64,000 nt of DNA from the NCBI GenBank assembly GCA_009841435.1, contig VXLW01000015.1, positions 1-64,000 on the forward strand, given 5' to 3'. The position numbers and the translations under genes were made by a program. Source of the DNA: Dehalococcoidia bacterium. Its GTDB lineage: Bacteria > Chloroflexota > Dehalococcoidia > Tepidiformales > Tepidiformaceae. This document shows, one piece after another, positions 13,276-61,828 of the stretch (positions within the stretch are counted from its first letter, which is position 1; each line of letters opens with the position of its first letter). The notes beneath the pieces were generated by a model, which searched no databases, had not been told where the DNA came from, and worked only from the letters and a program-made list of their open reading frames with translations.

Positions 13276-13280
13276 GGCGG

Positions 13281-37311: not shown

Positions 37312-39039
37312 TTACGCCTCGAGCCAGACCTTCGCCAGGTTCGGCTGCTCGAAGATCGTGACGAAGTGCTCGTCGTAGCCCTTCACGTTGGCGTTGGCCA
37401 CCTCGATTCGCTGGTTGGTATGCACGGGCAGGAGCCAGGGATCCTCGAGCCACATCCGGTTGAAGCGGGCGTACTGCTCCTTCGCCTCCTCGCCGAGCGG
37501 GTCCAGCCGCTCGAGGTTGGCGATGATGTCGAGGTACGTCTCCGTCTCGTAGTAGCTCGGGTTGCCCAGGCGGTACGGGAAGGTCTGCTGCATGGTGGTG
37601 AGCGGCGAGAGGTTCGAGAACTTGTGGGGGGCGACCCACAGGTCGACGAATCCGCGCTGCCGCAGCTTGCCTACCCAGACGCCGATCTCCTGGGTGACGA
37701 TCTCGACCTCGACGCCGATGTCGGCGAAGTTGCTCTTCAGGATCTCCGCGGTCACTTCCGTGCCGGGGATCGGCTCGATCATCAAGGGCGAGTCCTGCGA
37801 CCAGCCCGCTTCCGCGAGGAGGGCGCGCGCGCGGTCGGGCTCGTAGAGCTCGCTCTCGAGGTCGGGGTCGAAGGCGGGTGAGGAGCTCGGCCACGGCTGG
37901 GCGGTGAGGTCGCCGAAACCCTCCCGCAGCTCCTCCGTCATGCGCCGCCGGTCGATGGCGTAGAGGAGGGCCTGGCGCACGCGCGGGTCCACCAGCTTGG
38001 GGCTGTTGGTCACACAGCCGACGTAGACGATTCCGGCCTTCGGGGCGAGGAAGCCCTGCCCCGTGCGTCTGGCGACCGTGGGCGACACGCCGAGCGACCA
38101 GTCGATGTCGCCTGCTTCGAGGGCCAGCCCCAGGGATTCCGTGTCGGGGAAGTTCTGGAGCTCGATGCGATCGACGTAGGGACCGCCCTCGACGGCGGAC
38201 TGATGCCAGTTGCGGTTAGCCACGAAGCTGGCGCCAACGTCCGGGGTCCACTGCTCGAAGGCGAAGGGGCCGGTGCCCTGGATGTTCTGGCCTTCCTGCA
38301 GCTCGCGGTAGGTGCCCTTCTTCGTGACCAGGAGCTGGGCGAAGAAGTCGGTCATGTTCGGGCGGGGCTTGTCGAACTCGAACTCCATCGTGCGCGAGTC
38401 GATCGCCTCCCAACGCGTGAGCGTCACTGCGAACGAGCTGATCTGGAAACGCCCTGCGATGCCCCACGGCTCCGGGTCGAGCATCACCTCGATGCCGTGG
38501 AACACATCCTCGGGGGTGACGGGCGAGCCGTCGTGGAACTCGAGATCGGGCTTCAGGGTGACCGTCAGCTTGCTGCGGTCGTCGTTGTACTCGAAGCGCT
38601 CCGCCAGGACGGGGAACGGATCGAGGCTGTCCCGGTAGCGGACGAGCGGCTCGAGGACGGAGAAGTAGGGCTCGTTCTCCCAGGTAAAGGAGAAGGGGAA
38701 GCCCGTGTTCCAGATGAACGTCGGAGCGGAACCGCGCAGCGTTCCGCCGGTCTGGGGGCCGCCCTCGGCGGGGGCTTCCGTGGCCGCGGCCTCGGTCGCA
38801 GCTGCTTCCGTAGCCGCTGCTTCGGTCGCGGCTGCCTCGGTTGCGGCAGCTTCGGTCGCGGCTGCCTCAGTGGCAGCAGCCTCGGTGGCCGCTGCGCGGG
38901 TGGCGGCCGGTGCGGGCGCCTCGTCGTCGTCGTCGTCGCCGCAGCCCACCAGGGCCGCTGCCCCGATGCCTGCCGCGGCAGCACCGCTGCCGGCCAGCAA
39001 GGCCCGGCGGCTAATCCTTCGATCCTTCAGAGATGTCAT
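37312..39039 (-). CDS. ABC transporter substrate-binding lipoprotein (family 5)
   Basis: A 575-residue SBP_bac_5 protein that delivers peptides, oligosaccharides or metal complexes to the downstream permeases. The N-terminus has a twin-Arg motif (SRRALLAG) and a lipobox ending at Cys33, so it may be exported folded by Tat and lipidated. A tether follows, with nine 15-base repeats encoding ATEAA (residues about 45-90). The binding domain starts at about residue 105. GGGAGGGGAAC before the ATG is a strong ribosome-binding site; I rejected an upstream in-frame start at 39075. Confidence 0.92.
   Translation of the reverse strand: MTSLKDRRISRRALLAGSGAAAAGIGAAALVGCGDDDDDEAPAPAATRAAATEAAATEAAATEAAATEAAATEAAATEAAATEAAATEAPAEGGPQTGGTLRGSAPTFIWNTGFPFSFTWENEPYFSVLEPLVRYRDSLDPFPVLAERFEYNDDRSKLTVTLKPDLEFHDGSPVTPEDVFHGIEVMLDPEPWGIAGRFQISSFAVTLTRWEAIDSRTMEFEFDKPRPNMTDFFAQLLVTKKGTYRELQEGQNIQGTGPFAFEQWTPDVGASFVANRNWHQSAVEGGPYVDRIELQNFPDTESLGLALEAGDIDWSLGVSPTVARRTGQGFLAPKAGIVYVGCVTNSPKLVDPRVRQALLYAIDRRRMTEELREGFGDLTAQPWPSSSPAFDPDLESELYEPDRARALLAEAGWSQDSPLMIEPIPGTEVTAEILKSNFADIGVEVEIVTQEIGVWVGKLRQRGFVDLWVAPHKFSNLSPLTTMQQTFPYRLGNPSYYETETYLDIIANLERLDPLGEEAKEQYARFNRMWLEDPWLLPVHTNQRIEVANANVKGYDEHFVTIFEQPNLAKVWLEA
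38774..38908 (-). repeat. Nine 15-bp tandem repeats (lipoprotein tether)
   Basis: Nine degenerate copies of a 15-base unit (plus-strand pattern GCYTCSGTSGCSGCN) encode eight ATEAA units and one ATRAA. Third-position differences show they are not freshly duplicated. This is a flexible linker between lipid anchor and binding domain; copy number could vary between strains. Confidence 0.9.
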
Positions 39040-39152
39040 GAGTGTTCCCCTCCCGCAGGCGAACGCCTGCTCCAACTCCTCGGTTCCAGCATTCCTTGAC
39101 TGGGAATGTGGAGTGGCGGGATTCTACGACACAAGCGCCCCATGCGGGCGCG

Positions 39153-41177: not shown

Positions 41178-43427
41178 CTACTCGGCGATGATGCGACCGC
41201 GCAGTTCGGCCTCGCGATCCAGCACCTGGTTGGAACCCAGCTCGATCCGCACCCCTGCAATAGCGCCGGAGAAGGCGAACGGCACCTCGTAGTCCTCGCT
41301 GACGGGCGTGTAGAGGTCCTGCCCAACGTCGAGACCCTCGATCGCGAACATCCCACCGAGCGTGGCAGGGAGATCTCCACTTCCAACCTGGCGGCCGTTC
41401 ATCGTGAGAATGGCCGTTCCCGCCAGTTCGTTGGTCTTCGTGAACTCGAACGTCACGACCGACCCCCCAATTGGAACGTCCGTATCGGAGACGATGCGAT
41501 AGCGCTCGCCGACGTAGCTGTACTCGTGCACCAGACGGTTGTCCTTGATGAACAGGGAGTACCCACCGGTGATCCCGCCGTGGGCGATGAGCACACCCTC
41601 ATCCGCCTCGGTCTCCCGGGTCAGCTCGACGGTGATGGTGTAGTCGCGGTTGCGGACATCGGCAGCGGCATTCGTCGGCGTGTGGGCCATGCCCTGGCGG
41701 TAGACGAAGCTCGTGCGGTCTTGGGGAGAGCCCTTCTTGGGAGGCGTACCCCGGGCCCCGCGGAGCCCGTCTTCGAGCGGCAGCACGTCGTACTTGGCCG
41801 CCTCGATCCACCAGTGCTCGATCATCTCCTTCAGCTTCTCCGGCTCGGACTCGGCGAGGTCGTTGCACTCGGAGAAGTCCTCATCGAGGTGATAGAGCTC
41901 CCACTGATCGTCCTCGAAGGAACCCCCCGGCGCGTGGAAGGTGACCGCCTTCCAGCCGTCGTGCCAGATGCCCCGATGGCCGAACATCTCGAAGTGCTGG
42001 TTCCGCTTGCGAGTGGGCTCATCACCCGAGTCGAAGGTGTAGAGCATGCTCGTACCATGGATGGGGAGCTGGGGAACTCCCTGATGCATCTCCGGCGCCT
42101 CGACGCCGAGCACCTCCAGCACCGTGGGGACGATGTCGGAGATGTGGTGGAACTGTGGGCGGATTGCCCCGGCGTCCTTGATGCGATCGGGCCAGTGGAT
42201 GATGAGCGGGTCGCGGATGCCGCCCCCGTGGGTGTTTTGCTTGTAGCGCTTGAGCGGGGTGTTTCCGACCTGCGCCCAGCCCCAGGGGTAGTTCGTGTGG
42301 GACCTGGGGCCACCGATCTCATCGATGTTGGCCTGGTTGTACTCCTCGCTCGCGGGAACCTGGTTATAGAAGCGGCCCTCGTTGACGACACCGAGGGGAC
42401 CACCCTCCTGGCTCGCGCCGTTGTCGGAGACGACGACGAAGAGTGTGTTATCGAGCTCGTCGACCTCCTCGAGGTAGTCGGCGAGCCGCCCGATCTGGTG
42501 GTCCATGTGGTCGAGCATGGCCGCGAACGCTTCCTGCAGGCGGGCGCGGACGCGCTGTTCGTCTTCGGAAAGGTCATCCCAGGCGGGGACGCCGTTGTTG
42601 CGAGGGGCGAGCTGCGTGCCTTCGGGGACGATGCCGAGCTCCAGCTGGCGCTGGAACCAGGCCTCGCGCGTGGCATCCCAGCCCTGGTCGAATTTGCCGC
42701 GGTACTTGTCGAGGTACTCCTGCGGGGCCTGGTGGGGGGAATGGCAGGCTCCGAAGGCGACGTAGAGAAAGAAGGGAGTGGTCGAGAGCGAGGTCTGGTC
42801 GCGGACGAATTCGATGGCCTCGTCGACGATAGCCTCACTCAGGTGGTAGTCCGGGTCGGAGGGCGAGGGGATGTGGCGGTTGTCGAGGATGAGTTCGGGG
42901 GCGAACTGGTCGGTGAGCGCATCGAGGAATCCGTAGTAGCGCTCGAAGCCCTTTTGCAGCGGCCAGCCGGTAAAGGGACCGACAGCCGAGCCATCGGCCA
43001 TCGGGGCAAGGTGCCACTTGCCGAAGGCGGCCGTGTTGTAGCCCGTCTGCTGGAGCATCTGCGCGATCGTGGCCGCGCTCGGAGAGATCGCGCCGCGAGC
43101 ACTGGGGAAGCCCGTGTCGTAATTGGAGATCGTGCGCATGCCGACGGAGTGGTGGTTCCGCCCCGTGAGCAAGCACGCGCGCGACGGGGAGCAAATGGTG
43201 GTGGTGTGGAAGTTCCGGTAGCGAATCCCGTTGGCCGCGAGGCGATCCATGGCAGGGGTATCGATCGAGGAGCCGTAGCACCCGAGGTGCCCGAAACCAA
43301 CGTCATCGAGCATGATGAAGACGACGTTGGGGCTTCCCGGCGCCGGCTTCGGAGGCTCGGGCCACCACGGCGTCGACTCGCTCGTGTAGCGCCCGATATG
43401 ACCCTGGAAATACGGTTCGCTGCTCAT
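41178..43427 (-). CDS. Type I arylsulfatase (749 residues)
   Basis: Large sulfatase. The formylglycine site is Cys79 in CSPSR; metal ligands DD at 41-42 in MLDDVGFG are present. The N-terminal HIGRYTSESTPWWPEPPK stretch is typical of the long arylsulfatase subfamily. After the catalytic domain (to about residue 560), a beta-rich C-terminal domain resembling LamG folds occupies about 590-740. No signal peptide is recognised. It is likely matured by the FGE encoded about 1 kb away; substrate unknown. Confidence 0.92.
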   Translation of the reverse strand: MSSEPYFQGHIGRYTSESTPWWPEPPKPAPGSPNVVFIMLDDVGFGHLGCYGSSIDTPAMDRLAANGIRYRNFHTTTICSPSRACLLTGRNHHSVGMRTISNYDTGFPSARGAISPSAATIAQMLQQTGYNTAAFGKWHLAPMADGSAVGPFTGWPLQKGFERYYGFLDALTDQFAPELILDNRHIPSPSDPDYHLSEAIVDEAIEFVRDQTSLSTTPFFLYVAFGACHSPHQAPQEYLDKYRGKFDQGWDATREAWFQRQLELGIVPEGTQLAPRNNGVPAWDDLSEDEQRVRARLQEAFAAMLDHMDHQIGRLADYLEEVDELDNTLFVVVSDNGASQEGGPLGVVNEGRFYNQVPASEEYNQANIDEIGGPRSHTNYPWGWAQVGNTPLKRYKQNTHGGGIRDPLIIHWPDRIKDAGAIRPQFHHISDIVPTVLEVLGVEAPEMHQGVPQLPIHGTSMLYTFDSGDEPTRKRNQHFEMFGHRGIWHDGWKAVTFHAPGGSFEDDQWELYHLDEDFSECNDLAESEPEKLKEMIEHWWIEAAKYDVLPLEDGLRGARGTPPKKGSPQDRTSFVYRQGMAHTPTNAAADVRNRDYTITVELTRETEADEGVLIAHGGITGGYSLFIKDNRLVHEYSYVGERYRIVSDTDVPIGGSVVTFEFTKTNELAGTAILTMNGRQVGSGDLPATLGGMFAIEGLDVGQDLYTPVSEDYEVPFAFSGAIAGVRIELGSNQVLDREAELRGRIIAE

Positions 43428-43614: not shown

Positions 43615-46092
43615 ATGAGCCGCGTTCTCGAGAGGTTGAGCTGGCTGGTTACCGTCCGGCCGTACATCACGATCGCCATCCTCCTCGTCATTACCGTCGT
43701 CCTGGCCATGGGCGCGGGGCGGCGCGCGGAGGTGATCGAAGGCGCGGCCCTGGCATTCCTTCCCCCGGGGAACGACGTCGCCGATGCGATCAATGAGATA
43801 GACGAGCTCTTCTCGGAGTCGGGCGACGTCCGGGTCGTGACCCTCGTCTTCCGGGGCGAAGCATTCACCCCCGACGGGCTCTCACAGATGGACGCCCTGA
43901 TGGATGGCCTCCTTGGCGACCCAGCGATCGGCAGCCTGCTAGCGCCCGGCGACGCGGCGATCGCACCCATGTTCCTCATCGGAACGGTGCTCCAGACCGA
44001 CAGCTTCGAATCGGTCACGCAGGCAGAGATTGACTCTGCCCGCGGCGTGCCCGACATCGCCGCCGGGCTTGCCGCAATGACGGGGACCGACGAGGACGGC
44101 ACAGCCGTCGCGATCGCCACCATCAGGCTGATCGACACCGGCGACGAGCGAATTCAGGAGGCTGAACGCTCGATCAACGAGCTGGCGACCGACGACGAAG
44201 GCCCGCTGCGCGTAAGCAGCGTCTCGCCCGTGGTAATCGAGGATGAGTACAAGAAAGCCACGGAAGAGGGGCTGTTGCCGCTGATCGGGCTGGCCCTGCT
44301 CCTGATCCTCGCCCTGATCCTGGTGTTCCTGCGAACGCTCTCCGACCTGCTGCTCACGCTGGCCGGTCTGCTGATTTCACTGATCTGGGTCATCGGCGTG
44401 GAGGGCTGGCTCGGGCCGGACGCGCTCGATCTCATCGGCCCGCCGAGCTCGCTCACGGCCATGGTCCCAATCATCGTCATCAGCCTCACGGTGGACTACG
44501 CCATCCAGGCCGTCTCGCACTACCGCGAGCAGCGAACCGCCGGCGTCTCGGTCGTCGACGCGGTCAGGACGGGATTGCGCAACGTGACGATTCCGCTCGT
44601 GCTGGCCGCCGTCACGACGATCGTGAGCCTTCTGGCGAACCTGTTCTCGCCAATCTCCGTGGTGAGGGATTTCGGCATCGTGGCGGGGCTGGGCGTGGGC
44701 ATGAGCCTGATCGTGATGCTGACGCTGCTCCCGGCAGCGCGGACCATCATCGACCGGCGGCGCGAGGCGCGGGGCAAGCTGACGCCACCCCGACCGGTTG
44801 CGAACGCGCTGCCCGGCATCGGCCGCCTGGCGGAGGTGCTGGGAACATCAGTCGCGCGCCGGCCGGCACCCTACTTCATCGTCATTCTGGCGATCACGAT
44901 CGGGCTCGGATTCTCCGCCACGAGGCTCGAGTCCGGGTTTGACATCCGCGACATCTTGCCCCAGGGCGGAACCGTCCTGGAGGACATCGAGACCCTCGAG
45001 ACAGCCGTCGGCGGTTCGACGGAGATGGTCACTGTCCTGGTGAAAGCAGAAGCGACGGAGACGCGGACGTACCTGAACCTCCACGACCTCAGGGAGGCCT
45101 TCGACGATGAGGATCGCCGCCCGCGGGCGGCGGCAGGGCCCATCCAGATGTCGTATGAGCTGATCGTGCGCGACTGGACGACGGACAGCGGGCAGCCGGG
45201 CGACAACTACGACCCCGAGCTGGCCGCGCTTTTCCACGAAGCTTCCGCGGGGGTGGAGCTCGACCCAGAGCTGCTGCAGGAGTTCCTCGACCGGCTCAAG
45301 GAGCTGGAACCCGCTGTTGCTCATGCGCTGGTCGACGATCCGGACGGTATCGATTCACTGCTGGTCCAGTTCCCCGCCTTCTCGGGTGATCCGGATACGA
45401 CGAGGGCGCTCCAGGAGGACCTGGAGGCCCTCTGGTTCGGCGAGGACGGAACGGTCACGGCAACATCGGGGAGCATCATCTCTATCGCAGTCACGGACGA
45501 GATTACCGGTCGCCAGACCGAGGCGATCAGCACGACCATCGCGATGGCGTTCGGCATCCTCGCCATCTTCTTCTGGGTCACGTTGCGGCAGCCGGTACTG
45601 GCCTTTATCGCGGTGGCGCCGGTCATACTGGTGCTCATCTGGGTGCTGGGCACGATGGCCCTGATCGGCATTCCCTACACGCTGGTCACCGCAATCATCA
45701 CGGCGCTCTCGATCGGAATCGGCGTTGACTACACGATCCACGTGATTCATCGCTACCGGGAGGAGTTCGCCCACCTGCGCAATCCCGAGCAAGCGGCAAT
45801 CCGAACGCTAGCGACCACGGGATCGGCGCTGCTCGGGTCGGCCCTGACGACCGCCCTCGGACTCGGAGCGCTGGTGCTCTCGCCCACGCTCGCGTCTCAG
45901 GAGTTCGGCATCACGGCCGCGATCACGATCGCGTACGCGCTCATCGTGTCCATCCTGCTGGTCCCGCCCGCGATGACTGTCTGGGGCGCGTACCAGAACA
46001 TGAAGCTGCGCTCGATGGTGGAGCGGGTGTGGGAGGAGCTCGACGTGGCGATCGAGGGCGTCCACGAGCAGTACGAGCAGGAGTCGTCGTAG
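43615..46092 (+). CDS. RND/MMPL family transporter (HpnN/Patched-like)
   Basis: An 825-residue RND exporter with two homologous halves. Each has one helix, a periplasmic loop and five more helices; the conserved helix-4 motifs read LTVDYAIQAVSHYREQ and IGVDYTIHVIHRYREE with the proton-relay Asp. The family moves lipids: hopanoids (HpnN), mycolates (MmpL) and sterols (BstA, NPC1/Patched relatives). TAGAAT at 43601-43606 is 8 nt upstream of the ATG. It is convergent with the sterol methyltransferase-like gene, so a lipid-type cargo from that locus is plausible (inference). Confidence 0.9.
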   Translation: MSRVLERLSWLVTVRPYITIAILLVITVVLAMGAGRRAEVIEGAALAFLPPGNDVADAINEIDELFSESGDVRVVTLVFRGEAFTPDGLSQMDALMDGLLGDPAIGSLLAPGDAAIAPMFLIGTVLQTDSFESVTQAEIDSARGVPDIAAGLAAMTGTDEDGTAVAIATIRLIDTGDERIQEAERSINELATDDEGPLRVSSVSPVVIEDEYKKATEEGLLPLIGLALLLILALILVFLRTLSDLLLTLAGLLISLIWVIGVEGWLGPDALDLIGPPSSLTAMVPIIVISLTVDYAIQAVSHYREQRTAGVSVVDAVRTGLRNVTIPLVLAAVTTIVSLLANLFSPISVVRDFGIVAGLGVGMSLIVMLTLLPAARTIIDRRREARGKLTPPRPVANALPGIGRLAEVLGTSVARRPAPYFIVILAITIGLGFSATRLESGFDIRDILPQGGTVLEDIETLETAVGGSTEMVTVLVKAEATETRTYLNLHDLREAFDDEDRRPRAAAGPIQMSYELIVRDWTTDSGQPGDNYDPELAALFHEASAGVELDPELLQEFLDRLKELEPAVAHALVDDPDGIDSLLVQFPAFSGDPDTTRALQEDLEALWFGEDGTVTATSGSIISIAVTDEITGRQTEAISTTIAMAFGILAIFFWVTLRQPVLAFIAVAPVILVLIWVLGTMALIGIPYTLVTAIITALSIGIGVDYTIHVIHRYREEFAHLRNPEQAAIRTLATTGSALLGSALTTALGLGALVLSPTLASQEFGITAAITIAYALIVSILLVPPAMTVWGAYQNMKLRSMVERVWEELDVAIEGVHEQYEQESS

Positions 46093-46102
46093 GCGCCAGG
46101 GC

Positions 46103-47137
46103 CTAGAGAGGCTTTCGAGCCAGAAAACAGTACAGCGGCGTGTAGATCCCGGTCTTGCCACCTGCGACGTAGGCATCCGCGGTCCGATCCAGGAGCCGGA
46201 TGACTTCCGCGGAGCCCTTGGGGAACAGCCGCACCGTTTCGGCCAGCTTGACTCCTCCGATTATCGCTTTGCGGCCCCACGGGAGCCTGCGCACCGCGCT
46301 CCCCGGCGTTCCCTGGCGAGTCTCCATGGGCTGATACCAGGGTGTGGATGGCCCCTCCTGGACATCCCGATCCATCCCCTCGATGACCTCGAACCCGACC
46401 GCTTCAAGCGCGTGATTCACTTCCGCAAAGGTCGCGATGTCGTTCAGCGCGATGCCGAGCATGAGCTCTTGCTTGATGGCCCTGTGGCGGCTGTCGTTCG
46501 GGTCGAACTTCTCCGTCAGGCACATCTCCTGGCCCCAGAGGAGGGCTCCCGGTTTCAGCACGCGGAAGATCTCGGCGAACGCGCCCTGCTTGTCCGGCGC
46601 GTGGCAGGTTGACTCGATGGCGTACCCCCGGTCGAAGGCGCCGTCCGGGATGCCGCTCATATCCATGAAGCTGCACGTCTCGTAGTCGACCATGTGGTCG
46701 AGTCCCGCCTCGGCAGTTAGCTGCTTCGCCATCGCCAGCTGGATTTCGTTGATGTTGACTCCTGAGACGCGGACGCCGGCCTCACGGACAACCCGGCGCA
46801 TGGGGCCGCCGATTCCACATCCGACGTCGACCACGGTCATGCCCTCTTCCAACTCCAGCTTGGAGATCATCAACCGCTGGTGCCGTTCCTGTGACTGCTC
46901 CAGGCTCTCCGTGGGCTTGAGCGGCGCGAAGTGCAGGGATTCGCTCCAGCCCCAGACCATGAACGCCGTGCACAGGTCGTAGTACTCCTTCGCCGTTTCG
47001 CTATGGGAGTAATCGCTCGACCCATCGGCGGCCATCGCCGCGACATCGGTCCACTTGTTGAAGTCTCGCACGCGACCGGCGACGTCGGAGCCGCGGTACG
47101 AGTGGTTCAGCTCTTTCAGGAGTGTCCCTAGCTGCAC
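46103..47137 (-). CDS. Sterol C-24 methyltransferase-like protein
   Basis: A 344-residue AdoMet methyltransferase with recognisable versions of all four sterol methyltransferase signature regions: WGWSESLHF (62-70, sterol region I), DVGCGIGGP (104-112, AdoMet site), ESTCHAP (175-181) and WGQEMCLTEKFDPND. These define the Erg6/SMT family, which alkylates sterol side chains at C-24. The C-terminal domain is also of SMT type. A true sterol substrate is inference; related triterpenoids are possible. The start is GTG. It lies 77 bases after the GPP34-P450 gene on the same strand. Confidence 0.88.
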   Translation of the reverse strand: MQLGTLLKELNHSYRGSDVAGRVRDFNKWTDVAAMAADGSSDYSHSETAKEYYDLCTAFMVWGWSESLHFAPLKPTESLEQSQERHQRLMISKLELEEGMTVVDVGCGIGGPMRRVVREAGVRVSGVNINEIQLAMAKQLTAEAGLDHMVDYETCSFMDMSGIPDGAFDRGYAIESTCHAPDKQGAFAEIFRVLKPGALLWGQEMCLTEKFDPNDSRHRAIKQELMLGIALNDIATFAEVNHALEAVGFEVIEGMDRDVQEGPSTPWYQPMETRQGTPGSAVRRLPWGRKAIIGGVKLAETVRLFPKGSAEVIRLLDRTADAYVAGGKTGIYTPLYCFLARKPL

Positions 47138-47214
47138 GACGTGGGGTTCCCCCTTGCCTTTCGTCTATGGCCGGCTGACAAATTGCCAAACGGAGTCCGA
47201 AGAGAACCAGCGCC

Positions 47215-49239
47215 TCAGGTTGGGATTTCGCGCCTCTTCTCGGCGATCACAAACTTGATCTTCTTGCTGATGGAGAGCGAGGGGAACGGGTTAATCCGCA
47301 GGGGCTTGTTTTCGGGCGACACCTTGATGGTGAAGTAGTGCGCGAGCATCAGCAGATTGGCGCTGAGCTGCAGCTCCATCCAGCGCGAGCCGAGGCAGGT
47401 GTGCGTACCCAGCCCGTACGGGGCGTAGCCGGGACCGCGATGCTCGTCTCGCGGAGGCAGGTAGCGGTCGATGTCGAACTTCTCGGGATCGGGGAACACA
47501 TCGCTCATGTAGTGCGAGGCCGTCTGGGCGATGTGGATCTCCGATCCCTCGGGGAGCTCGTAGCCCTCCACCACGCAGGCGTTCATCACGGTCCGGATCG
47601 ACACAGGGACGATCGGGTAGATGCGCATGGACTCCATGATGAAACGGTGGGTGGTGTCGATGGCTTCCAGGGTGAAGTCCTCGGGGGCGGGATCGCCGTC
47701 AGCGAAGAGGGCATCCGCTTCGGCGCGGATCCGCTCATAGAGATCGGGCTGGGTGGCCATGGCGTAGAGCGCGAAGCTGAGCCCGTCGCCGAGGTACACG
47801 CTCGCAATCAGCGGCGCCGAAAGGGCGAAGCGCAGATTCGACTCGGGGAGGAACTGCGGATCGCTCGCGTGCAGGCTGAGCAGGTCGTCGGCAAGGTCGC
47901 GGGGACATCCGGCCCGCTGGGCGGGGGTGTGGATGCCCTGGACGCGGTCCAGCAACGTCTCGATGCCTTTCGCCTTCCGCTTCATGCCCGGTGTGCTCAG
48001 CATGAACTTGGGCAGCACCTTCACGACTCGCGTGGCGAGCGCTCGTTCCTTGTAGACACTCAAGTCGTCGAGGAGGTCCTGCGACTGCACGCTGAGCATG
48101 AGCGGCGAAATCTGGGAATTGATCAACTTCCGGGACATGGGGCATGCGGGGAAGGCGTCCCCGACCTTCCAGCTCGCCATGTGCGCACGGGCGTTGTCGA
48201 AGACAGTGTCCAGCTGCCCTTCCAGCCGCGCACGGGAGTAGGCCGGCTGCATGGACTTGCGGAAGCGGAAGTGGTCGGCGCCATCGAGGGAGGGGAGGAT
48301 TCCGGACGCGCCGTAGACCTTCTCGAACTCCTGGAGGTAGTCCTTGGCCCGCAGGAACGTGCGCCCGTGCCGGTGAGCCCAGCGATTGGTTTCGGGACCG
48401 GCGAGGAACGTCATGGTGTCGAGGAACGGCGGGTTGAGCCTGAACACGGGGCCGTACTCTTCTGCGAGATCGGCGAAGAGCCCCGGCAGGTTGCCTCTCC
48501 GGAGATGTCGGTTGAGCAACACCTTGCGCAGCGGAACCGTGGGGATCTCCTTGGTCAGCGTGGCGCGCCGGAGCAGCGGGCCGGCCAGGTTGTTGGCGAC
48601 CGCATCAGCGATCGCCCGGCCGATCAGGTCCATCCTGCAGATGAGTTCGACGCGCTCCTCATGCTCTTCCTCGATAGGGAAGACGAAGCGGAGGACGTCG
48701 CAAGTGTTCGCGAGCGCGATGATGATGACATCCCGCGGGTCGGGAATCTCGTTGTTGTAGAGCACGTTGCCGATACGCGTCGTCACGAACTCGGTCGAGC
48801 CATTCTGCGAATCGCCCGTTTCTGCGCGCTGCCACGCGATGCGCGACAGGGTCCAGAACTCGCCGTCGTGGTACTGGAGGATCTGCATCGCCACCAGACG
48901 CTCCAGGGTCACATCGATGATCGACTCCGCATGGGGCGCGAGGCGCTCGATCCAGTACTGGGCGTTTTGCTGAGCCGGTTCGTCGGCGATTTCCCGCAGG
49001 ATGTCGTCAAGGGCGGCGTCTCCTGTAGGGGTCTTGTCCAGGAGGATGAGCGAGTCCATGTCGGTATCGATGCGGGAGATGAGGGACAGCTCCGCGAGCA
49101 CCGCCCCGACCACTGCACAGTTCAGGTCCCACCCGGGTACCTGGCGAAAGTAGCCGCTGTCCTCATTGAGGAGCATCAGGAGGAGTTCATCGGGCAGAGT
49201 GAGCGCTCGCGTTGCGACGCGTTCCGTAGCGAGAGTCAT
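47215..49239 (-). CDS. GPP34-cytochrome P450 fusion
   Basis: A 674-residue fusion. Residues about 10-225 form a GPP34 (GOLPH3-like) domain, with LPDELLLMLLNEDSGYF and EIPDPRDVIIIALANTCDVLRF. Residues about 240-674 form a cytochrome P450: ExxR in ESMRIYP, FDIDRY, and the heme motif YGLGTHTCLG with Cys about 615. The I-helix reads YLGDGLSFAL, lacking the usual (A/G)Gx(D/E)TT. GPP34 may hold the P450 at a lipid surface (inference). I chose ATG 49239 (MTLATERV). The methyltransferase follows; the Rieske gene is divergent. Confidence 0.9.
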   Translation of the reverse strand: MTLATERVATRALTLPDELLLMLLNEDSGYFRQVPGWDLNCAVVGAVLAELSLISRIDTDMDSLILLDKTPTGDAALDDILREIADEPAQQNAQYWIERLAPHAESIIDVTLERLVAMQILQYHDGEFWTLSRIAWQRAETGDSQNGSTEFVTTRIGNVLYNNEIPDPRDVIIIALANTCDVLRFVFPIEEEHEERVELICRMDLIGRAIADAVANNLAGPLLRRATLTKEIPTVPLRKVLLNRHLRRGNLPGLFADLAEEYGPVFRLNPPFLDTMTFLAGPETNRWAHRHGRTFLRAKDYLQEFEKVYGASGILPSLDGADHFRFRKSMQPAYSRARLEGQLDTVFDNARAHMASWKVGDAFPACPMSRKLINSQISPLMLSVQSQDLLDDLSVYKERALATRVVKVLPKFMLSTPGMKRKAKGIETLLDRVQGIHTPAQRAGCPRDLADDLLSLHASDPQFLPESNLRFALSAPLIASVYLGDGLSFALYAMATQPDLYERIRAEADALFADGDPAPEDFTLEAIDTTHRFIMESMRIYPIVPVSIRTVMNACVVEGYELPEGSEIHIAQTASHYMSDVFPDPEKFDIDRYLPPRDEHRGPGYAPYGLGTHTCLGSRWMELQLSANLLMLAHYFTIKVSPENKPLRINPFPSLSISKKIKFVIAEKRREIPT

Positions 49240-49350
49240 GAGTCCAGTCCCCGAGGCGCGGGCTATCTCGCAGGAGGCGCCCGACCTCAAAAGCAAGTGT
49301 ATCGCAAGCGAATCCAGGGGGGGCAACCAATCCCGAGAGAAAGGATCGGT

Positions 49351-49374
49351 TCAGGTGTGAGTGTGCTCACCTGA
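49351..49374. promoter_or_regulatory. Palindromic operator candidate between P450 and Rieske genes
   Basis: TCAGGTG (49351-49357) and CACCTGA (49368-49374) form a perfect 7-bp inverted repeat, with a GTGAG/CTCAC core inside. It lies in the 223-base divergent gap, a position suited to co-regulation of both genes by one repressor. No regulator gene is adjacent. A loose -35 (CTGACG) overlaps its right arm on the plus strand. Confidence 0.45.
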
Positions 49375-49462
49375 CGTAAGATTCGCGTGCCCCTACCGTA
49401 AATGGTGACTCTTCGGCGAAGGGGATCCGTTAGTCGAGATTCCAGGTGAGGAGTGTCGGACG

Positions 49463-50599
49463 ATGCCAGCGCCACGTCCCGAGGCCGCCAACGACACGCT
49501 TTCGCCCTTTCCCGAGGGCTGGTACTTCCTCGCGAGCCGCGAGGCCATCGAAAAAGCCGGACTCATCGAGAAGACCTGGATGGGCGAAGAGATCGTGATC
49601 TGGTGCGATGAGGACGGTCGGGTCTGCGTCGCGGAGTCGGTCTGTCCGCACCTCGGCTCGGCGCTCGGGCCCTCCGCAGGGGGGCGCATCTGCGAGGGAC
49701 GGGTGGTCTGTCCGTTCCATGGCTTCGAGTTCGATACCAGCGGGCAGTGCGTGGCCACGCCCTTCGCCCCCCCGCCGCGATCGGCGAGGCTGCGAGTCTT
49801 CGAGACGTACGAGGTCGCGGGGCTGATCTTCGCCTGGTGGGGTATCGAGGGCCGGCCCTCCCAGTGGAGCCTGCCGGACGACGCCACCGACCAGGAAGGG
49901 TGGAGCGACCTCCGCATCCAGACCCTGCGCTTCCCCGGTCATCCCCAGGAGACGACGGAGAACTCGGTCGACATCGCCCACCTGCGCTACGTGCATGGCT
50001 ACGACAACGTGGACCGCACCCACCCAATCGAAGTAGACGGGCCACTCTTCGTGAGCCGCTGGGACTTCCGGAGTGTGCGGAAGATCGCCGGGATCGTCAG
50101 GCTCACGCTCGACCTCTCCGCCCACACCCGCATCTTCGGGTTCGGCTACTCCCTTGTGGAGGTCCGCGAGCACTCGATCCCAATGGACATGCGTCTGTGG
50201 ATCCTGGCGACACCCGTGGACGGCAGGCTTATCGACATGTCGCTGGTCTCTCAGGTGCGAGTGGAACCGAGGACCAGGCGGTTCATCGCGGGCGCGGGGT
50301 TTCTCCCGCATCGGCTGCGGGCTCAAGTTGTCAACAGGTTCCTGAGCCCCATGCAGAAGATGGACGTGCTGCAGGACGTGGTGATCTGGCGCCGCAAGCA
50401 GTACCGCTCGCGCCCACGCCTCAACCGGGCCGACGGGGAGATCACGATGTTCCGGGACTACTGCGCCCAGTTCTATCCGGACGCGGCGGGCGTCGCGAAT
50501 CGGCTTCCCGAGCCCGATCGTGCAGTTCGGCAAGCGGATGCGGGGTTACGCGTTCCGGAATCGCCAGCCGTAGAGGATGCCCCCGTAGTAGTTGAATGA
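49463..50599 (+). CDS. Rieske non-heme iron oxygenase (sterol 7-desaturase-like)
   Basis: A 378-residue Rieske oxygenase. The [2Fe-2S] ligands are Cys61, His63, Cys83 and His86; the 19-residue spacing and CPHLGSALG wording resemble DAF-36/Neverland cholesterol 7-desaturases rather than KshA. The mononuclear iron ligands are Asp170, His173 and His178 in ENSVDIAHLRYVH, again with the sterol-desaturase pattern. GAGGAG precedes the ATG. The 3' end overlaps the convergent FAD gene by 54 bases. No ferredoxin or reductase gene is nearby. Sterol substrate is inference. Confidence 0.9.
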   Translation: MPAPRPEAANDTLSPFPEGWYFLASREAIEKAGLIEKTWMGEEIVIWCDEDGRVCVAESVCPHLGSALGPSAGGRICEGRVVCPFHGFEFDTSGQCVATPFAPPPRSARLRVFETYEVAGLIFAWWGIEGRPSQWSLPDDATDQEGWSDLRIQTLRFPGHPQETTENSVDIAHLRYVHGYDNVDRTHPIEVDGPLFVSRWDFRSVRKIAGIVRLTLDLSAHTRIFGFGYSLVEVREHSIPMDMRLWILATPVDGRLIDMSLVSQVRVEPRTRRFIAGAGFLPHRLRAQVVNRFLSPMQKMDVLQDVVIWRRKQYRSRPRLNRADGEITMFRDYCAQFYPDAAGVANRLPEPDRAVRQADAGLRVPESPAVEDAPVVVE

Positions 50600-51901
50600 A
50601 CGCCTGGCGGCGTCGTCCTCGAAGGGGTAGTCCGCCCCGAGCTGCCGGGCGGCGGCGAGGCCCGTCACGAAGCAGGTCTCCTGGGCGTTGACCAGCGTGT
50701 GGGCGCCGCAGTGCCACGTTCGCCGCTTACCCTGGATGAAGCGGAAGATGTTCGCCGTCACCGCAACGTGACGCACGTCGTGAACGATGTGCTGGAACCA
50801 CCACTTCTTCACGACCTTGCTTTCGTCGATAGGGCTGATCGGGTTGTAGGTCACGAGGCAGGGCTTGTCGGACTCCTGAGCCCACGGCTGCTGGTTGTGC
50901 ATGATGTAGGTGATCTCGTAGTTGTCCGGCCTCGCACCGTACTGCTCGATGTGATTGCTCCGGGTCGTCAGGGGCTTGACCTCGTTGTCAGGGAGGACAG
51001 AGGCGTCGGAGTGGACGACCGTGTGGTTGTGGAGCTCACTCTCGTAGCGGATCGACGAGAGGATGGAGCGCTCGAGGAAGGTGGGCCTGTCGAGGAGCAT
51101 CAGGGTCTGGTTGGCGTTGCAGGCGAAGATGACGTCGTCGAACGCCTCGCGCACGCCGTTCTCGTCCTCCACCACGACGCCGATCTTTTCCCGATAGACC
51201 TTGCGGACGGGCCGGCCGAGGAAGATCTTGTCACGGAAGCCGGCCGATAGCTCTTCGTAGATACGGCGCGTGCCCTGGTCCCACGTCTGCATGGGCGTGG
51301 CGGTTTCAATGTCGAAGAACTCGAGGTAGCGGGAGAAGAGCGCCGCGGGCATGTCGAAGACGTTCGTCGCCATCAGGAAATTGACGAACATCGGCTTCAG
51401 GACCTTGTAGCGAAACTCCCCGGAGAAGCCTCCCAGGTTGAGCACCGTCCCCATGCTTATGTAATTGAACGGATTGAGGGCGTTGAGGAACTTCGACTGC
51501 TTCCGGGTCAGCCAGCCGATGCGGTGCAGGCGCCGCAACATGCGCTGGAACTTCGCAATCTCGGGCTGCAGCTGCTGCCGGATGTTGGAGTCAAAGTCGT
51601 GCGCATAGAGGCGGTCCTGGTACTTCACGCTGTAGCTGAACCTGGTATCGACGAGGTCGATGCCGAAGCGCTCCATCAACAGGACGATGTGGTGGTAGAT
51701 GGAGGGGATACAGGCGGTGACGGAGATGTCGAAGGGGATGGAGCCGCCGCCATCCTGGGGCATATCGGCCGTAATGGCGTTCCCGCCGACCTGTTCCTGG
51801 GCCTCGAACAGGCGGAAGTCGAAGCGATCGGGGTGATGGTTCAGCGCCCAGGCAGCGCCAAGCCCAGAGATGCCTCCGCCAACGATGGCAATTCGCCGCA
51901 T
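50546..51901 (-). CDS. FAD-dependent amine oxidase-type oxidoreductase
   Basis: A 451-residue flavoprotein. The N-terminal dinucleotide motif AIVGGGISGLGAAWAL (residues 4-19) and acidic end of the second strand (LFEAQEQVGGNA) define the GxGxxG FAD fold of the NAD(P)/FAD oxidoreductase / amine oxidase group. The C-terminal part contains WHCGAHTLVNAQETCFVTGLAAARQL. Relatives act on lipids or carotenoid-like compounds. It lies next to P450 and Rieske genes, so a redox step on the same molecule is plausible (inference). Its end overlaps the Rieske gene on the opposite strand. Confidence 0.85.
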   Translation of the reverse strand: MRRIAIVGGGISGLGAAWALNHHPDRFDFRLFEAQEQVGGNAITADMPQDGGGSIPFDISVTACIPSIYHHIVLLMERFGIDLVDTRFSYSVKYQDRLYAHDFDSNIRQQLQPEIAKFQRMLRRLHRIGWLTRKQSKFLNALNPFNYISMGTVLNLGGFSGEFRYKVLKPMFVNFLMATNVFDMPAALFSRYLEFFDIETATPMQTWDQGTRRIYEELSAGFRDKIFLGRPVRKVYREKIGVVVEDENGVREAFDDVIFACNANQTLMLLDRPTFLERSILSSIRYESELHNHTVVHSDASVLPDNEVKPLTTRSNHIEQYGARPDNYEITYIMHNQQPWAQESDKPCLVTYNPISPIDESKVVKKWWFQHIVHDVRHVAVTANIFRFIQGKRRTWHCGAHTLVNAQETCFVTGLAAARQLGADYPFEDDAARRSFNYYGGILYGWRFRNA

Positions 51902-57225: not shown

Positions 57226-60200
57226 TCAGTGCCAGTCGTGCGCATCCGGCATGGGGACGCCCGTGCCCACCGGCTCGACGTGCGCAACGACGATGGTCGT
57301 GGTCCCGTCCCGGCACGAGACCTGTCCCCGGATCAGGAGCACCTCGCTCCGGAGCTCCTTGCGGTGGCGCGCGTAGACGCGGGGCCAGAGGATGACCTGC
57401 ACCTCCCCGCTCTCGTCTTCGATGGTGACGAAGACCGTCCCCTCCTGTCCGCGCGGGTGCTGCCGGGCGATGGGCCACCCCGCCACTCGCAGCGCCGTTC
57501 CGTCGGGCAGGCCCTCGACGTCGGCGCAGGGAGTCACGCCGGGGGGCAGTGAGGGCCGCACGAACTCCATCAGGTGGCCGCGGGGGTAGACCCCCAGCGT
57601 CCGGTACTCGCCCACCATCCTCTCGTATTCGCTGAAGTCCACAAGCGCTGGGACGCCCGCCGCCCCTGTCGTGGGGAAGGCGCGCTGCCCGTTCCGGGAT
57701 GGCGGGGTGGCGAGACCCGCGTCCCAGAGCGCCAGCCGGCGGCTCGGTTCGACGGCATCGAACGCCCCCGCCTCTACCAGCGACTGCGCCGCCTGCGGCT
57801 TCAGGCCCGTGCGGCGCACGAGGTCGCCGGCGCCGGCGTAGGGACCACGCCGCTCGCGCTCCGCCACGATCAGTTCCGCCGCGGCCTGTCCCACGTCCTT
57901 GACGATCTGGAGCCCCAGCCGCACGCAGCCGTTGTCGGGGATGGCGCGCGCCTCGCTCGTGTTCACGCAGGGGTTGAGGAAGGGCGCGTCGAAGCGGCGG
58001 GCATCCTCCTTGAGCGTCTCCAGCGGGTAGAAGCCCATGGGCTGGTTGTTGACGAGCGCGACAAAGAACTCGAGCGGGTGGTAGCGCTTCAGCCAGGCGG
58101 CCTGGTAGGCGGTGATGGCGAAGGCATGCGAGTGCGACTCCGGGAACATGTAATGGCCGTTGATCTTGGCGAAGATCGTGCGCGCCGTTTCCTCGGGCAC
58201 GCCCCGGCTCCGCGCCCCCTTCAGGAAGCGCTCCCACTGCATCTCGATCAGGTGCTCGCTCTGGGGGCGGGCGAAGGCGCGCCGCAGTTCGTCCGCCTCG
58301 GCGGCGGTCATCCCCGCCACGTCCATCACGAGTTGCACCACCTGCTCCTGCCAGACGATGACGCCGCAGCCCCGCTCCAGGGCGCGCTCCTCCAGCGGGT
58401 GGTCGTACGTCCACTCCGCTCCATGCCGGTAGCGGTCGATGAACTTCGAGACGGCGCTGCCCTGCACCCCCACCCCGGGCCGGATAAGCGCCACCTGGTA
58501 GGCCAGGTCGAGCAGGTTCCGGGAGCGGAGGCGCTGGGCGATCTTGAGCTGGGCGGGCGACTGGAGGAGGAACACACCCTTCCCCCGCCCCTCGTTGATG
58601 AGGTCGTACACGTTCGGGTCATCGGGGGCGATGCGACTCAGGTCGGGCCGCGTTCCCTCGCGCTCCTCGATCAGGTCGAGAGCTTCTTCGATCTGGTCGA
58701 GGACGGGCAGGGAGAGGAGGTCGATCTTGGCAAAGCCGGCATCGGCCACGCTGTCCTTGTTCCAATCCATGATGAAGCGGCCCGCGATCGCCCCCTCGCG
58801 GGTGGGGACCATCCCCGGGATGGGGCCGTCGCTCAGCACCAGGCCGCCGACATGCTGGCCCAGCCCCCGGGGCGCGTGCAGCAGCTGGGGCGCCAGCTCC
58901 GTCAGCTCGCGCCAGCCGGGGGCGTCGACCCGCTCGCGGAAGGCGGGCGCCTCCAGCATCGCCTCCCGCAGCCCCTCGCCGCCACGGGAGCGGAGCTGTT
59001 TCGAGAGCAGGCGCAGGTCCTCCCGCGGCAGGCCGAGGGCCTTGCCCAGGTCCTGGACAACGCCCTTGAGCGAGTAGGTCGCGATGGCTCCCGCGAGGAC
59101 GGCGTACTCCGCGCCGAAGTGCTGGTGCACCCGCACGATCAGCTCGTCGCGGAGGGCGCGGGGGAAGTCGAGGTCGATGTCGGGGAGGGTCTGCATGTCC
59201 TCGGGCATGAAGCGCTCGAGCGTGAGGTTCCAGCGCAGCGGGTCGACGTGGCTGATGCCGATCAGGTAGCCGACCAGCAGCGCCACCGAGGAGCCCCGCC
59301 CCCGTCCCGGCGGACGTTCCTCGATGGACGTGTCGGGATCGGCGAGCCCCCGCTCCTCCATGATCCGGCGGGCGAGGCGGACGATCTCCCGGTAGAGCAG
59401 GAGGAAGCCCGCCAGACGGTGGCGGTGGATGAGTCCGAACTCCTCGTCGAGGCGCTCTCGCACCTCTTCCGTGAGCGCGCCGTAGCGCCGCCGAGCGGCC
59501 TCCTCGCAGAGCCGCCGCAGGTAGCTCTCGGGCGTGTGGCCCGCGGGCACCGGGGGTTCGGGCAGGCGGTAGCCCAGATCGGTGCTGAGGTTGAAGCGGC
59601 ACTGCTCGGCGATGCGCAGGGTGTTGGCGACGGCCTCGGGGTAGTCGCGGAAGAGGCGCGCCATCTCCTCCGGTGGCTTCAGGGAGAAGTGGTCGTTGGG
59701 CCGGATGAAGGGCAGCGCCCGATCGATGGTGACATTGCGGCGAGCGGCCGCCAGCGCATGCTGCAGCCGGTAGCGGGCGGGGTCGTGGTAGCGCACGTCG
59801 TTCGTGGCTACCAGCGGAGCGCCCGCCTCCCGCGCGAGCTCCGCCAGCTCGCGGTTGCGGGTGGTATCGCCCTGGAGCAGGTTCTGCTGGAGCTCCACGT
59901 ACACGGAGTCCGGGCCGTACCACTCGCGGTAGCGGTCGAGTAGCTCCCCCGCCTCCCGCCGCCGACCTTCCAGGGCCAGCCGCGCGAGGCGCCCATCGCG
60001 TCCGCCGGTCAGCAGGAGCAGGCCCTCGGCGTGCTCGGGCAGGTGGGCGGGGTCGAGCCGCGGTTCGCGCCGATCGGCAGCGTTGGCGAAGGTGAACAGC
60101 TGCGAGAGGTTGGCGTAGCCCTCGCGCGTCTTCGCCAGCAGCACCATGCTGGAGCCATCCGCCAGCATCAGCTCCCCGCCGGTGACGGGCTGGACACCGA

Positions 60201-60372
60201 GGCTGTTGGCCAGGCGCGCGAACTCCAGCGCTCCGCAGAGGTTCGTATCGGTGAGGGCGAGGGCCGGACTGCCGTGCGCCTTCACGTGCGCCAGCAGCTC
60301 GTGGCCGTGCGAGGCTCCCTCCCCGAAGGAGTAGAAGCTCCGCGCGTGCAGCTCGACGTAGCCGGCGGACAC
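57226..60372 (-). CDS. dnaE2: Error-prone DNA polymerase III alpha subunit DnaE2
   Basis: Replicative-type C-family polymerase used for mutagenic lesion bypass; 1048 residues, the DnaE2 size. The PHP domain comes first (VELHARSFYSFGEGASHG). The catalytic Asp pair lies in LPDIDLDFPRALRDELI, and further polymerase motifs (RGRGSSVALLVGY, GLGQHVGG) are intact. A helix-hairpin-helix region and OB-fold with EDESGEVQVILWP follow. The start is GTG preceded by GGAG, 13 bases after imuB on the same strand, so both are driven by the SOS promoter upstream of imuB. Confidence 0.95.
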   Translation of the reverse strand: MSAGYVELHARSFYSFGEGASHGHELLAHVKAHGSPALALTDTNLCGALEFARLANSLGVQPVTGGELMLADGSSMVLLAKTREGYANLSQLFTFANAADRREPRLDPAHLPEHAEGLLLLTGGRDGRLARLALEGRRREAGELLDRYREWYGPDSVYVELQQNLLQGDTTRNRELAELAREAGAPLVATNDVRYHDPARYRLQHALAAARRNVTIDRALPFIRPNDHFSLKPPEEMARLFRDYPEAVANTLRIAEQCRFNLSTDLGYRLPEPPVPAGHTPESYLRRLCEEAARRRYGALTEEVRERLDEEFGLIHRHRLAGFLLLYREIVRLARRIMEERGLADPDTSIEERPPGRGRGSSVALLVGYLIGISHVDPLRWNLTLERFMPEDMQTLPDIDLDFPRALRDELIVRVHQHFGAEYAVLAGAIATYSLKGVVQDLGKALGLPREDLRLLSKQLRSRGGEGLREAMLEAPAFRERVDAPGWRELTELAPQLLHAPRGLGQHVGGLVLSDGPIPGMVPTREGAIAGRFIMDWNKDSVADAGFAKIDLLSLPVLDQIEEALDLIEEREGTRPDLSRIAPDDPNVYDLINEGRGKGVFLLQSPAQLKIAQRLRSRNLLDLAYQVALIRPGVGVQGSAVSKFIDRYRHGAEWTYDHPLEERALERGCGVIVWQEQVVQLVMDVAGMTAAEADELRRAFARPQSEHLIEMQWERFLKGARSRGVPEETARTIFAKINGHYMFPESHSHAFAITAYQAAWLKRYHPLEFFVALVNNQPMGFYPLETLKEDARRFDAPFLNPCVNTSEARAIPDNGCVRLGLQIVKDVGQAAAELIVAERERRGPYAGAGDLVRRTGLKPQAAQSLVEAGAFDAVEPSRRLALWDAGLATPPSRNGQRAFPTTGAAGVPALVDFSEYERMVGEYRTLGVYPRGHLMEFVRPSLPPGVTPCADVEGLPDGTALRVAGWPIARQHPRGQEGTVFVTIEDESGEVQVILWPRVYARHRKELRSEVLLIRGQVSCRDGTTTIVVAHVEPVGTGVPMPDAHDWH

Positions 60373-60385
60373 GGGGCGGCTCCGG

Positions 60386-61828
60386 CTAACAGGCCTGCCG
60401 GTACCAGCGCGCCTCGCGCCGGTCACGGAAGAGGGTGACCCGCCGCCCGTCCTCGCCACGGACGCGGTAGTAGTCGCGGCTCAGGGGCGCGGGCAGCCAC
60501 CAGAGGTCGAAGCTCCAGCAATCCTCGATGCGCGCGACCGGCCGCCAGCCCCGCTCCAGGCGTACGGCCAGGGGTTGCCCCTCCGGCCCCTCCTCCACCG
60601 CCACGGGGGCGGGCGGCGCGAGCGGACGCATGGCGGCGCGCGCGGCGGGGTCGATGGGCGCCTGCAGGACGCGCATCTCGGGGGCGGGGTGCCAGGGTGC
60701 GACGGAGGTCATCCGGTACAGCGCGGGACCGCCAAGACGGGCCCGGAGCTGCCGCTCGGCCTCCTCCAGGCGGCGCTCGCGCCCCGCGCGCACGTCGGGG
60801 AAGAGACCCAGTTGCTCGCCCACCCCCTCGCCCAGGTCGCCGAGCTCCAGCACGAGCTCCTCGACGGGGGCCTCGGGATGGTCGTGCTCCAGCCGCCGGC
60901 GGATCACGGGGGAGGCCTCCTCCCGGCTTCCCACGCCCCGCCGGAAGTGGAACGCCCGCTCCCAGGGGGGCGCCTCGTGCAGGAGACATGTCAGCTCGGC
61001 CCGGCCGGCGCGGCGCCCCCGCGCCGCGGGCCGCGCGAAGGCGCGCCTGAGGAGCGTGTCGACCCCGGTGAGCGCCAACTCCAGCGAGGCGGAGGCGAAG
61101 GGCAGGGGGATGCGCTCCACGACCGCCTCCTCGCTCTCGATGGGCAGCAGGGGGCGGTCGTCGATGCCCTGGCTGAGCTCCCAGGCGCGCCGTCCGTCGT
61201 TCCCGAACTGGTCGATGAGCAGCTCCGGCCGCATGGCGGCGACGGCGCCCATGGTGTGCAGCCCGAAGCGGAGCAGTCCGCCAAGCACGTCGCGGGAGAT
61301 GGGCAGCAGGTCAATCGGGTGGGGCGCGAGGAAGGGGGCAGGATCGGCAGAAACCGTGACGGCCTTGTGCGACCTGCCCGTGCGCGCGGCGACGAAGGCC
61401 GGGAACTTCGCCTCCGCGACCCCGATCCGGGGCTCCAGGTCGCGGGGGAGCGCCTCGCGCAGGGCGCGCACGAGCGCCGCCTCACCGCCGTGCAGGGACT
61501 CAAGTCCATCGAGGCCGACGTAGGCCGTGCCCAGCTCCGCGCCCTCCACCCGGTCGCTGACCCCCTGCAGGGCGGTGAGCGTCTGCCGGAACACGCGACG
61601 GTAGGCGGGCTCGTCCGCCTCCAGCACGATCACATCCGGGTGTCGCGAGAGCGCCTTGTCCAAGGACATACCCGCGAGCACCCCCGTCACGGCCGGGAAA
61701 GCGTCCACCACCCGTGGCCTGCCCGCGGAGCGGTCGGCGATCAGGGCGGGCCGCGCCCGCAGGTGGGGCTGCCGCCTCAGCTCGACCCTGGCCCTGAGGT
61801 GCGTGATGAGCACGCAGGCGATCCGCAC
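60386..61828 (-). CDS. imuB: ImuB-type Y-family polymerase-like protein
   Basis: A 480-residue adaptor of the mutasome that links DnaE2 to the beta clamp. It has the Y-family fold but lacks the catalytic acidic residues: the N-terminal strand reads ACVLITHLRARVELRR where active enzymes have DMDAFF, and the later DE pair is absent (YVGLDGLESLHGG). So it is probably inactive as a polymerase. The C-terminal tail (DCWSFDLWWLPAPLSRDYYRV) matches ImuB. GGGAGGA precedes the GTG start. No imuA-like gene is present beside it. Confidence 0.92.
   Translation of the reverse strand: MRIACVLITHLRARVELRRQPHLRARPALIADRSAGRPRVVDAFPAVTGVLAGMSLDKALSRHPDVIVLEADEPAYRRVFRQTLTALQGVSDRVEGAELGTAYVGLDGLESLHGGEAALVRALREALPRDLEPRIGVAEAKFPAFVAARTGRSHKAVTVSADPAPFLAPHPIDLLPISRDVLGGLLRFGLHTMGAVAAMRPELLIDQFGNDGRRAWELSQGIDDRPLLPIESEEAVVERIPLPFASASLELALTGVDTLLRRAFARPAARGRRAGRAELTCLLHEAPPWERAFHFRRGVGSREEASPVIRRRLEHDHPEAPVEELVLELGDLGEGVGEQLGLFPDVRAGRERRLEEAERQLRARLGGPALYRMTSVAPWHPAPEMRVLQAPIDPAARAAMRPLAPPAPVAVEEGPEGQPLAVRLERGWRPVARIEDCWSFDLWWLPAPLSRDYYRVRGEDGRRVTLFRDRREARWYRQAC

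Follow-up and report, generated by a model that had tools for sequence, protein, structure and literature searches.

The stretch analysed here (the window) is 64,000 nucleotides of a Dehalococcoidia bacterium (GenBank assembly GCA_009841435.1, contig VXLW01000015.1, positions 1 to 64,000), and belongs to a Chloroflexota metagenome-assembled genome (MAG) of 2.7 Mb in 127 contigs that is 89.8% complete (genome G000, contig C4). At 43615-51901 it carries five neighbouring genes, which an original prediction made from the sequence alone had assigned to one sterol or triterpenoid lipid pathway. Five open reading frames with the proposed domains, all well above the Pfam cut-offs, were found at this place, and, as had also been noted, no cyclase gene lies inside the window. 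The five genes (hereafter the module; lengths in amino acids, aa) are as follows.

43615..46092, + strand: MMPL/HAE3-type RND transporter, 825 aa (PF03176, 155.8 bits; weaker Sterol-sensing and Patched matches)
46103..47137, - strand: SMT2, sterol-methyltransferase-like protein, 344 aa, GTG start (PF08498 and a class-I methyltransferase domain)
47215..49239, - strand: GPP34-cytochrome P450 fusion in a single frame, 674 aa from a conserved ATG (PF05719, 106.5 bits; PF00067, 126.5 bits)
49463..50599, + strand: KshA_C Rieske oxygenase, 378 aa (PF00355, 64.3 bits; PF19298, 78.3 bits)
50546..51901, - strand: LkcE-like FAD oxidoreductase, 451 aa from ATG (PF01593, Amino_oxidase, 48.9 bits)

Because the strands alternate (+,-,-,+,-), the module is a gene neighbourhood and not one operon. 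Longer frames opening with TTG are present for the P450 gene (49326) and the FAD gene (51955), but these extensions are not conserved, and the ATG codons at 49239 and 51901 are probably the starts. The 3' ends of the Rieske and FAD genes overlap by 54 bases; a convergent overlap of about 50 bases, by match coordinates, is conserved in the relatives L039, L041, L043, L045 and L046.

The PF08498 domain was detected in 21 of the 251 Chloroflexota genomes sampled and in none of 14 well-known genomes used as a control. For most of the Chloroflexota matches, up to 20 kb of surrounding sequence was read; SMT2, where present, usually had the other four module genes next to it, at 62-84% identity and in variable order and orientation. 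Further, a scan of genome contigs with an SMT2 alignment gave 262 relatives among 337 candidate stretches, the best 80 of which were analysed. Beside SMT2, these 80 loci carried GPP34-P450 (64 loci), Rieske (54) and FAD (39) genes, and all four core genes occurred together in 36; contig ends trim many of the 80, and among the 52 loci of at least 19 kb the complete set was present in 26. As the gene set recurs at 62-84% identity and in 36 of the 80 SMT2-retrieved loci, the module is not a chance grouping.

By NCBI ranks, the 80 loci were distributed over Chloroflexota (38), Gemmatimonadota (11), Pseudomonadota (8), Nitrospirota (6), Nitrospinota, Actinomycetota and Thermodesulfobacteriota (two each), and Acidobacteriota, Latescibacterota, Myxococcota, Rhodothermota and Bacteroidota (one each), with six unassigned, that is, over 12 named groups, or 11 when Rhodothermota is counted in Bacteroidota. 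A careful SMT2 tree was built with 71 proteins, after near-copies had been thinned from 81 plus the window's own, and required six label changes for Chloroflexota and four for Gemmatimonadota. Forcing the ten Gemmatimonadota together was rejected by the approximately unbiased test (p = 8.6e-5; only this group was tested, with no reason for its choice stated beforehand). This scatter of phyla therefore pointed to lateral transfer, the simplest reading of the SMT2 spread, with misbinned MAG contigs as a possible contribution. The names of 35 of the 80 MAGs start with RHO, COS, IRC or APA; the SB066x bins (16 of 80), the MPM* bins and others are presumably also of sponge origin. The four prefixes match the sponge hosts Rhopaloeides, Coscinoderma, Ircinia and Aplysina aerophoba named in the accessible part of PMC8163846, and the MAGs so named are presumably sponge-derived. 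Apparently, the module carriers are mostly sponge symbionts.

The PF08498 (Sterol_MT_C) score of SMT2 was 61.7 bits against a cut-off of 21.7, compared with 78-94 bits for matches of the canonical type (SMT1), with which SMT2 shares 36-43% identity. In a quick-method tree of 71 SMT2, 22 SMT1 and yeast Erg6 (sequence unverified, a long branch, no outside root), all SMT2 proteins fell on one side of a branch with a support of 100 in the SH-like approximate likelihood ratio test, and Erg6 grouped with SMT1, leaving SMT2 outside its clade. The phylogeny thus places the methyltransferase with the sterol methyltransferases, as had been expected, although as a sister clade and not inside the canonical one. 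An alignment of 42 SMT2 and 14 SMT1 sequences showed that the S-adenosylmethionine (SAM) site and region II (IESTCHAP) are kept. Region I of SMT2 has Met60 (42/42) and Val61 (35/42), whereas SMT1 has Tyr/Phe-Glu (Glu in 14/14), and region III has Gln-Glu-Met in SMT2 vs. Tyr-Glu-Tyr/Trp in SMT1. Hence, of the four sterol signatures described as recognisable in the original prediction, region II is retained and two others, I and III, occur in a modified form only. We take the region I pair to be yeast Y81-E82, in which Tyr81 presumably sets the number of methyl groups added. From the changes in regions I and III, we infer that SMT2 may act on a changed sterol position or on another substrate. 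The predicted SMT2 structure reached a predicted local distance difference test score of 88.5 with a 56-row alignment (just 44.4 with 14 close sequences); its PDB matches are general class-I methyltransferases and point to no particular substrate. SMT2 resembles the SMT1 of sponge symbionts (Brown et al., 2023, PMC10070321) in the PF08498 family and in the sponge-symbiont setting, but differs in its separate clade and its changed regions I and III. According to the available portion of that paper, activity on the sterol side chain was found for 8 of 10 SMTs from symbionts and 12 of 14 from the environment, and the enzyme for the C-26 step is stated as unknown; SMT2 would be a fair candidate for this C-26 sterol methyltransferase.

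The three oxidative enzymes of the module also appear catalytically intact. The ExxR and haem-Cys motifs of the P450 are kept across 62 homologues. Its identity to the CYP51-type P450s of sterol clusters is 23-29%, not close to CYP51, and among solved structures a putative P450 matched its P450 domain best, followed by CYP51 chains at E ~1e-19. No relevant account of a bacterial GPP34-P450 was found in the open-licence literature of PubMed Central (PMC). A second family of GPP34-P450 homologues (40-50% identity) was observed near SMT2 or an oxidosqualene cyclase (OSC) in other phyla (L123, L128, L148, L175, L184, L195 and others), which suggests a larger, uncharacterised GPP34-P450 family. The FAD gene is the most conserved one of the module (80-84% identity in other Chloroflexota), and its catalytic motifs are kept across 38 homologues; its best solved relative is the amine oxidase LkcE (E 7e-28), a member of the same sequence family, which does not imply functional equivalence.

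The Rieske oxygenase keeps the CPH...CPFHG and ENSVD..H....H motifs across 39 homologues, and has the Rieske plus KshA_C architecture, with KshA as the best solved relative (E 1.8e-21). It shares this architecture and the ligand motifs with the KshA 3-ketosteroid 9alpha-hydroxylases, including the sponge-only cluster IV described in the accessible text of PMC5790920, but at that E value it is only a distant relative. The KshA_C domain, together with the sponge-only KshA cluster and the steroid degraders reported from sponges in the same source (Holert et al., 2018), would fit steroid catabolism, in which the KshA-like Rieske protein, the P450 and the flavoprotein oxidise host sterols as the entry to degradation. 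A catabolic context was not seen by the ring-cleavage proxy TIGR03213, which scored over its cut-off in none of 37 genomes, with weaker matches in 11, and had no match in G000 at E 1e-3; this is a proxy family only, and the full kstD/hsa/ipd set was not searched. HsaC is related to this 2,3-dihydroxybiphenyl dioxygenase family. Moreover, the methyltransferase, the ERG4/24 reductases and the OSC linkage described below are anabolic features, and catabolism was considered improbable.

The transporter differs between lineages. MMPL adjoins SMT2 in 29 of the 38 loci from Chloroflexota and in none of the remaining 42. Gemmatimonadota loci (10 of 11) and Pseudomonadota loci (5 of 8) mostly have an AcrB-type pump near SMT2, a split that fits cells with one vs. 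two membranes. Adaptor genes were present in 11 and outer-membrane channel genes in 8 of the 80 loci. The MMPL protein scored below the curated NCBIfam cut-offs for HpnN (119.6 vs. 751.85 bits), BstA (32.8 vs. 1400) and MmpL3 (47.6 vs. 1400), and the HAE3 model was also missed; it belongs to the same sequence family as the HAE3-MMPL exporters, again without functional equivalence being implied. Protein family and synteny suggest that the product is exported by the module transporter.

The original prediction had proposed a search of the rest of the genome for squalene epoxidase (SE) and OSC. Both are absent from G000 (PF08491, 0 matches), in which HpnC, a squalene-hopene cyclase (SHC), an SdmB-like gene, a truncated SdmA and an ERG4/ERG24-family reductase are present. 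The one PF13243 cyclase (439 bits) is an SHC by TIGR01507 (729 bits) and adjoins HpnC; as it is the single PF13243 match, a second, hidden cyclase was rejected. The SdmB-like gene, whole and scoring 294.8 bits against an NCBIfam cut-off of 600, and the first ~246 residues of SdmA form a sterol-cluster remnant (G000:C93 ~10453-13600; L248:5453-8578) with 97% DNA identity to the cluster of a sister genome. Its SdmA frame runs in frame into unrelated sequence of lower GC content (51-57% vs. 64-68%), followed by an Eco57I-like DNA methylase, so that either the cluster was broken by an island insertion or the contig is misassembled. An OSC-type cyclase is present in the sister genomes G251, G252 and G253, whose SMT2 is 98, 94 and 87% identical, and is fused to the epoxidase in two of the three; the cluster of G251 reads SdmB-SdmA-ERG24-CYP51-SE/OSC-SMT1 (families assigned by Pfam and NCBIfam on the homologous L231 cluster). 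ERG4/ERG24 reductases over the cut-off were found in 20 of the 21 PF08498-bearing genomes vs. none of eight hand-picked genomes without the domain; four Chloroflexota loci have a pair of them beside the module, and a fifth has a single one at its end.

The physical linkage between the module and OSC clusters was then evaluated. Among 47 module-family genomes, an OSC-type cyclase (176-196 bits) was found in 14 and an epoxidase of at least 75 bits in 13; G218 was added, giving 15 OSC genomes. Neighbourhoods were retrieved separately for 12 of the 15, and the other three were taken from L131, L132 and L136. Ten of these 15 OSC genomes have a homologue of a module gene at most ~15 kb from the OSC, namely G262, G263, G264, G267 and G268 (all Nitrospirota), G271, G293, G275, G257 and G253, compared with ~4% of genomes expected by simple arithmetic for four genes in 3 Mb to lie at most 15 kb from a given gene. 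In detail, SMT2 itself is within ~15 kb of the SE-OSC in L131, L132, L136, L137/L231 and L143, the FAD gene is near it in L230, L235 and L236, and GPP34-P450 homologues (46-54% identity) in L228, L232 and L233; for G253 and G257 the link consists of a GPP34-P450 homologue of ~50% identity only. The OSC genomes with no linked module gene were G251 and G297 (both short stretches), G252, G218 and G281. By Pfam and NCBIfam, the cluster neighbours are a CYP51-type P450, SdmA, SdmB, ERG24 and SE-OSC, and several module genomes also carry the canonical SMT1. In G093 (L042/L153), which has no OSC-type cyclase, one contig carries both SMT2 and, ~6 kb away, a canonical SMT1. With triterpenoid genes in G000 and module genes beside OSC clusters in several lineages, the assignment to one sterol or triterpenoid pathway was supported; a genome devoid of triterpenoid genes combined with phylogenies outside the sterol families, which would have spoken against it, was not what was found.

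The module could instead tailor and export a hopanoid or another cyclic triterpenoid made by the genome's own SHC. The SHC and HpnC of G000, SHC-type cyclases in 18 of the 21 PF08498-bearing Chloroflexota genomes and the weak HpnN similarity of MMPL (119.6 bits) all agree with this. Nevertheless, G033 and G157 (98% complete) possess every module gene but no SQHop cyclase of any type, and hopanoid tailoring fails there; the OSC clusters adjoining module genes, the SMT domain architecture of the methyltransferase and an MMPL score far below the HpnN cut-off argue in the same direction, making hopanoid tailoring a most improbable explanation.

The domains, intact catalytic motifs, conserved gene set, OSC-cluster linkage, separate SMT2 clade and cross-phylum spread were all computed directly. 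With a probability of about three in four, we read the locus as a module for the tailoring and export of sterols that bacteria, apparently sponge-associated ones, share through lateral transfer; the sterol substrate, the order and site of the reactions and the direction of transport are the putative parts. The substrates would be sterols, either produced in the same cell by a bacterial epoxidase-OSC/CYP51/SdmAB/ERG24 cluster or acquired from the host or from other symbionts nearby. SMT2 would methylate an olefinic sterol side chain with SAM as the donor; the GPP34-P450, probably membrane-held via its GPP34 domain, and the KshA-like Rieske protein may oxidise the side chain and/or the ring, and the flavoprotein may dehydrogenate or isomerise the oxidised intermediate. 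Export of the product would rely on MMPL in Chloroflexota, and Gemmatimonadota and part of the Pseudomonadota would use an RND system of the AcrB type.

Several observations weigh against sterol tailoring as the function. SMT2 occurs without the other three core genes in 13 of the 80 loci and stands apart from module genes in G042 and G218; G000 lacks SE and OSC, and SMT2 is its only PF08498 protein. Nitrospirota make up five of the ten OSC-linked genomes, and these cases are hence not independent. An OSC is absent from 33 of the 47 module-family genomes (completeness not given) and from 19 of the 20 other PF08498-bearing Chloroflexota; as the latter are mostly 91-98% complete, the idea that MAG incompleteness explains every missing OSC was rejected. 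De novo sterol supply is therefore not general, and OSC-free carriers must obtain their substrate elsewhere, from the host or from neighbours, if it is a sterol. We know of no assay for any enzyme of the module, and the solved structures nearest to SMT2 are natural-product methyltransferases (TleD, AtmM, MitM, SpnF and RebM), not sterol enzymes. With TleD, MitM and SpnF for SMT2 and LkcE for the FAD enzyme as the closest solved structures, the product might be an unrelated specialised metabolite (an alkaloid, polyketide or linear terpenoid) and the methyltransferase merely SMT-like. But no scaffold enzyme was recognised among the gene families present in at least five of the 80 loci (some judged by eye), OSC clusters and ERG4/24 reductases recur, and PF08498 is above its cut-off; such a product was thus judged very improbable.

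Sterol clusters in sponge symbionts have already been published (PMC9531527, PMC10070321, each as far as accessible), and no description of the present module was found in the open-licence PMC literature. The CSG (clusters of steroid genes) of Ircinia symbionts (Kelly et al., 2022, PMC9531527) is similar in its broad taxonomy and horizontally transferred sterol genes, and is the kind of cluster that adjoins module genes here. It consists of ERG24-CYP51-LSS, often with SMT1, and the GPP34-P450, KshA-like Rieske, FAD, SMT2 and MMPL genes are not named in the accessible part of that paper. Similarly, the msb cluster of a gammaproteobacterial symbiont of Melophlus (PMC7074536) has SdmB/SdmA-like, ERG24-like, CYP51-like, SE-OSC and SMT genes; the available text describes no tailoring gene of the GPP34-P450, FAD or KshA-like kind. 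Its authors propose there that other symbionts may modify the sterol core of one symbiont, a role for which the module is a candidate. New here are the distribution over phyla, the physical link to OSC clusters, the many occurrences in genomes without OSC, and SMT2 as a clade of its own.

Symbiont sterol clusters so far end at a demethylated or C-24-alkylated core. With four tailoring enzymes and an exporter, the module is a defined and widely shared gene set, open to expression and testing, and may help to explain the origin of unusual sponge sterols. Whether host or bacteria own the enzymes for unusual sterols matters for the 24-isopropyl- and 26-methyl-steranes that have been proposed as the oldest fossils of animals, and the frequent presence of the module without OSC makes communal sterol processing within one animal testable. 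More speculatively, and in our view doubtful, SMT2 could be a sterol methyltransferase acting elsewhere than at C-24 (e.g., C-26), and the module an inter-phylum 'sterol commons' toolkit in sponges, with which OSC-less symbionts remodel the sterols of the host or of other symbionts. If so, it would be a source of odd oxidised and alkylated sponge sterols and, by extension, of some sterane fossils.

Three further genes in the window lie outside the module.

41178-43427, - strand: sulfatase, 749 aa (PF00884, 229 bits), directly upstream of the MMPL gene
37312-39075, - strand: family-5 solute-binding protein; a long low-complexity linker of (ATEA)n lies close to the lipoprotein-like N-terminus
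57226-60459, - strand: candidate error-prone DNA polymerase III alpha (DnaE2 type), 1077-aa frame, judged by eye

Sponge sterols are frequently sulfated. The sulfatase was considered as a module member and dropped, as no sulfatase family was recognised among those shared by at least five of the 80 loci.

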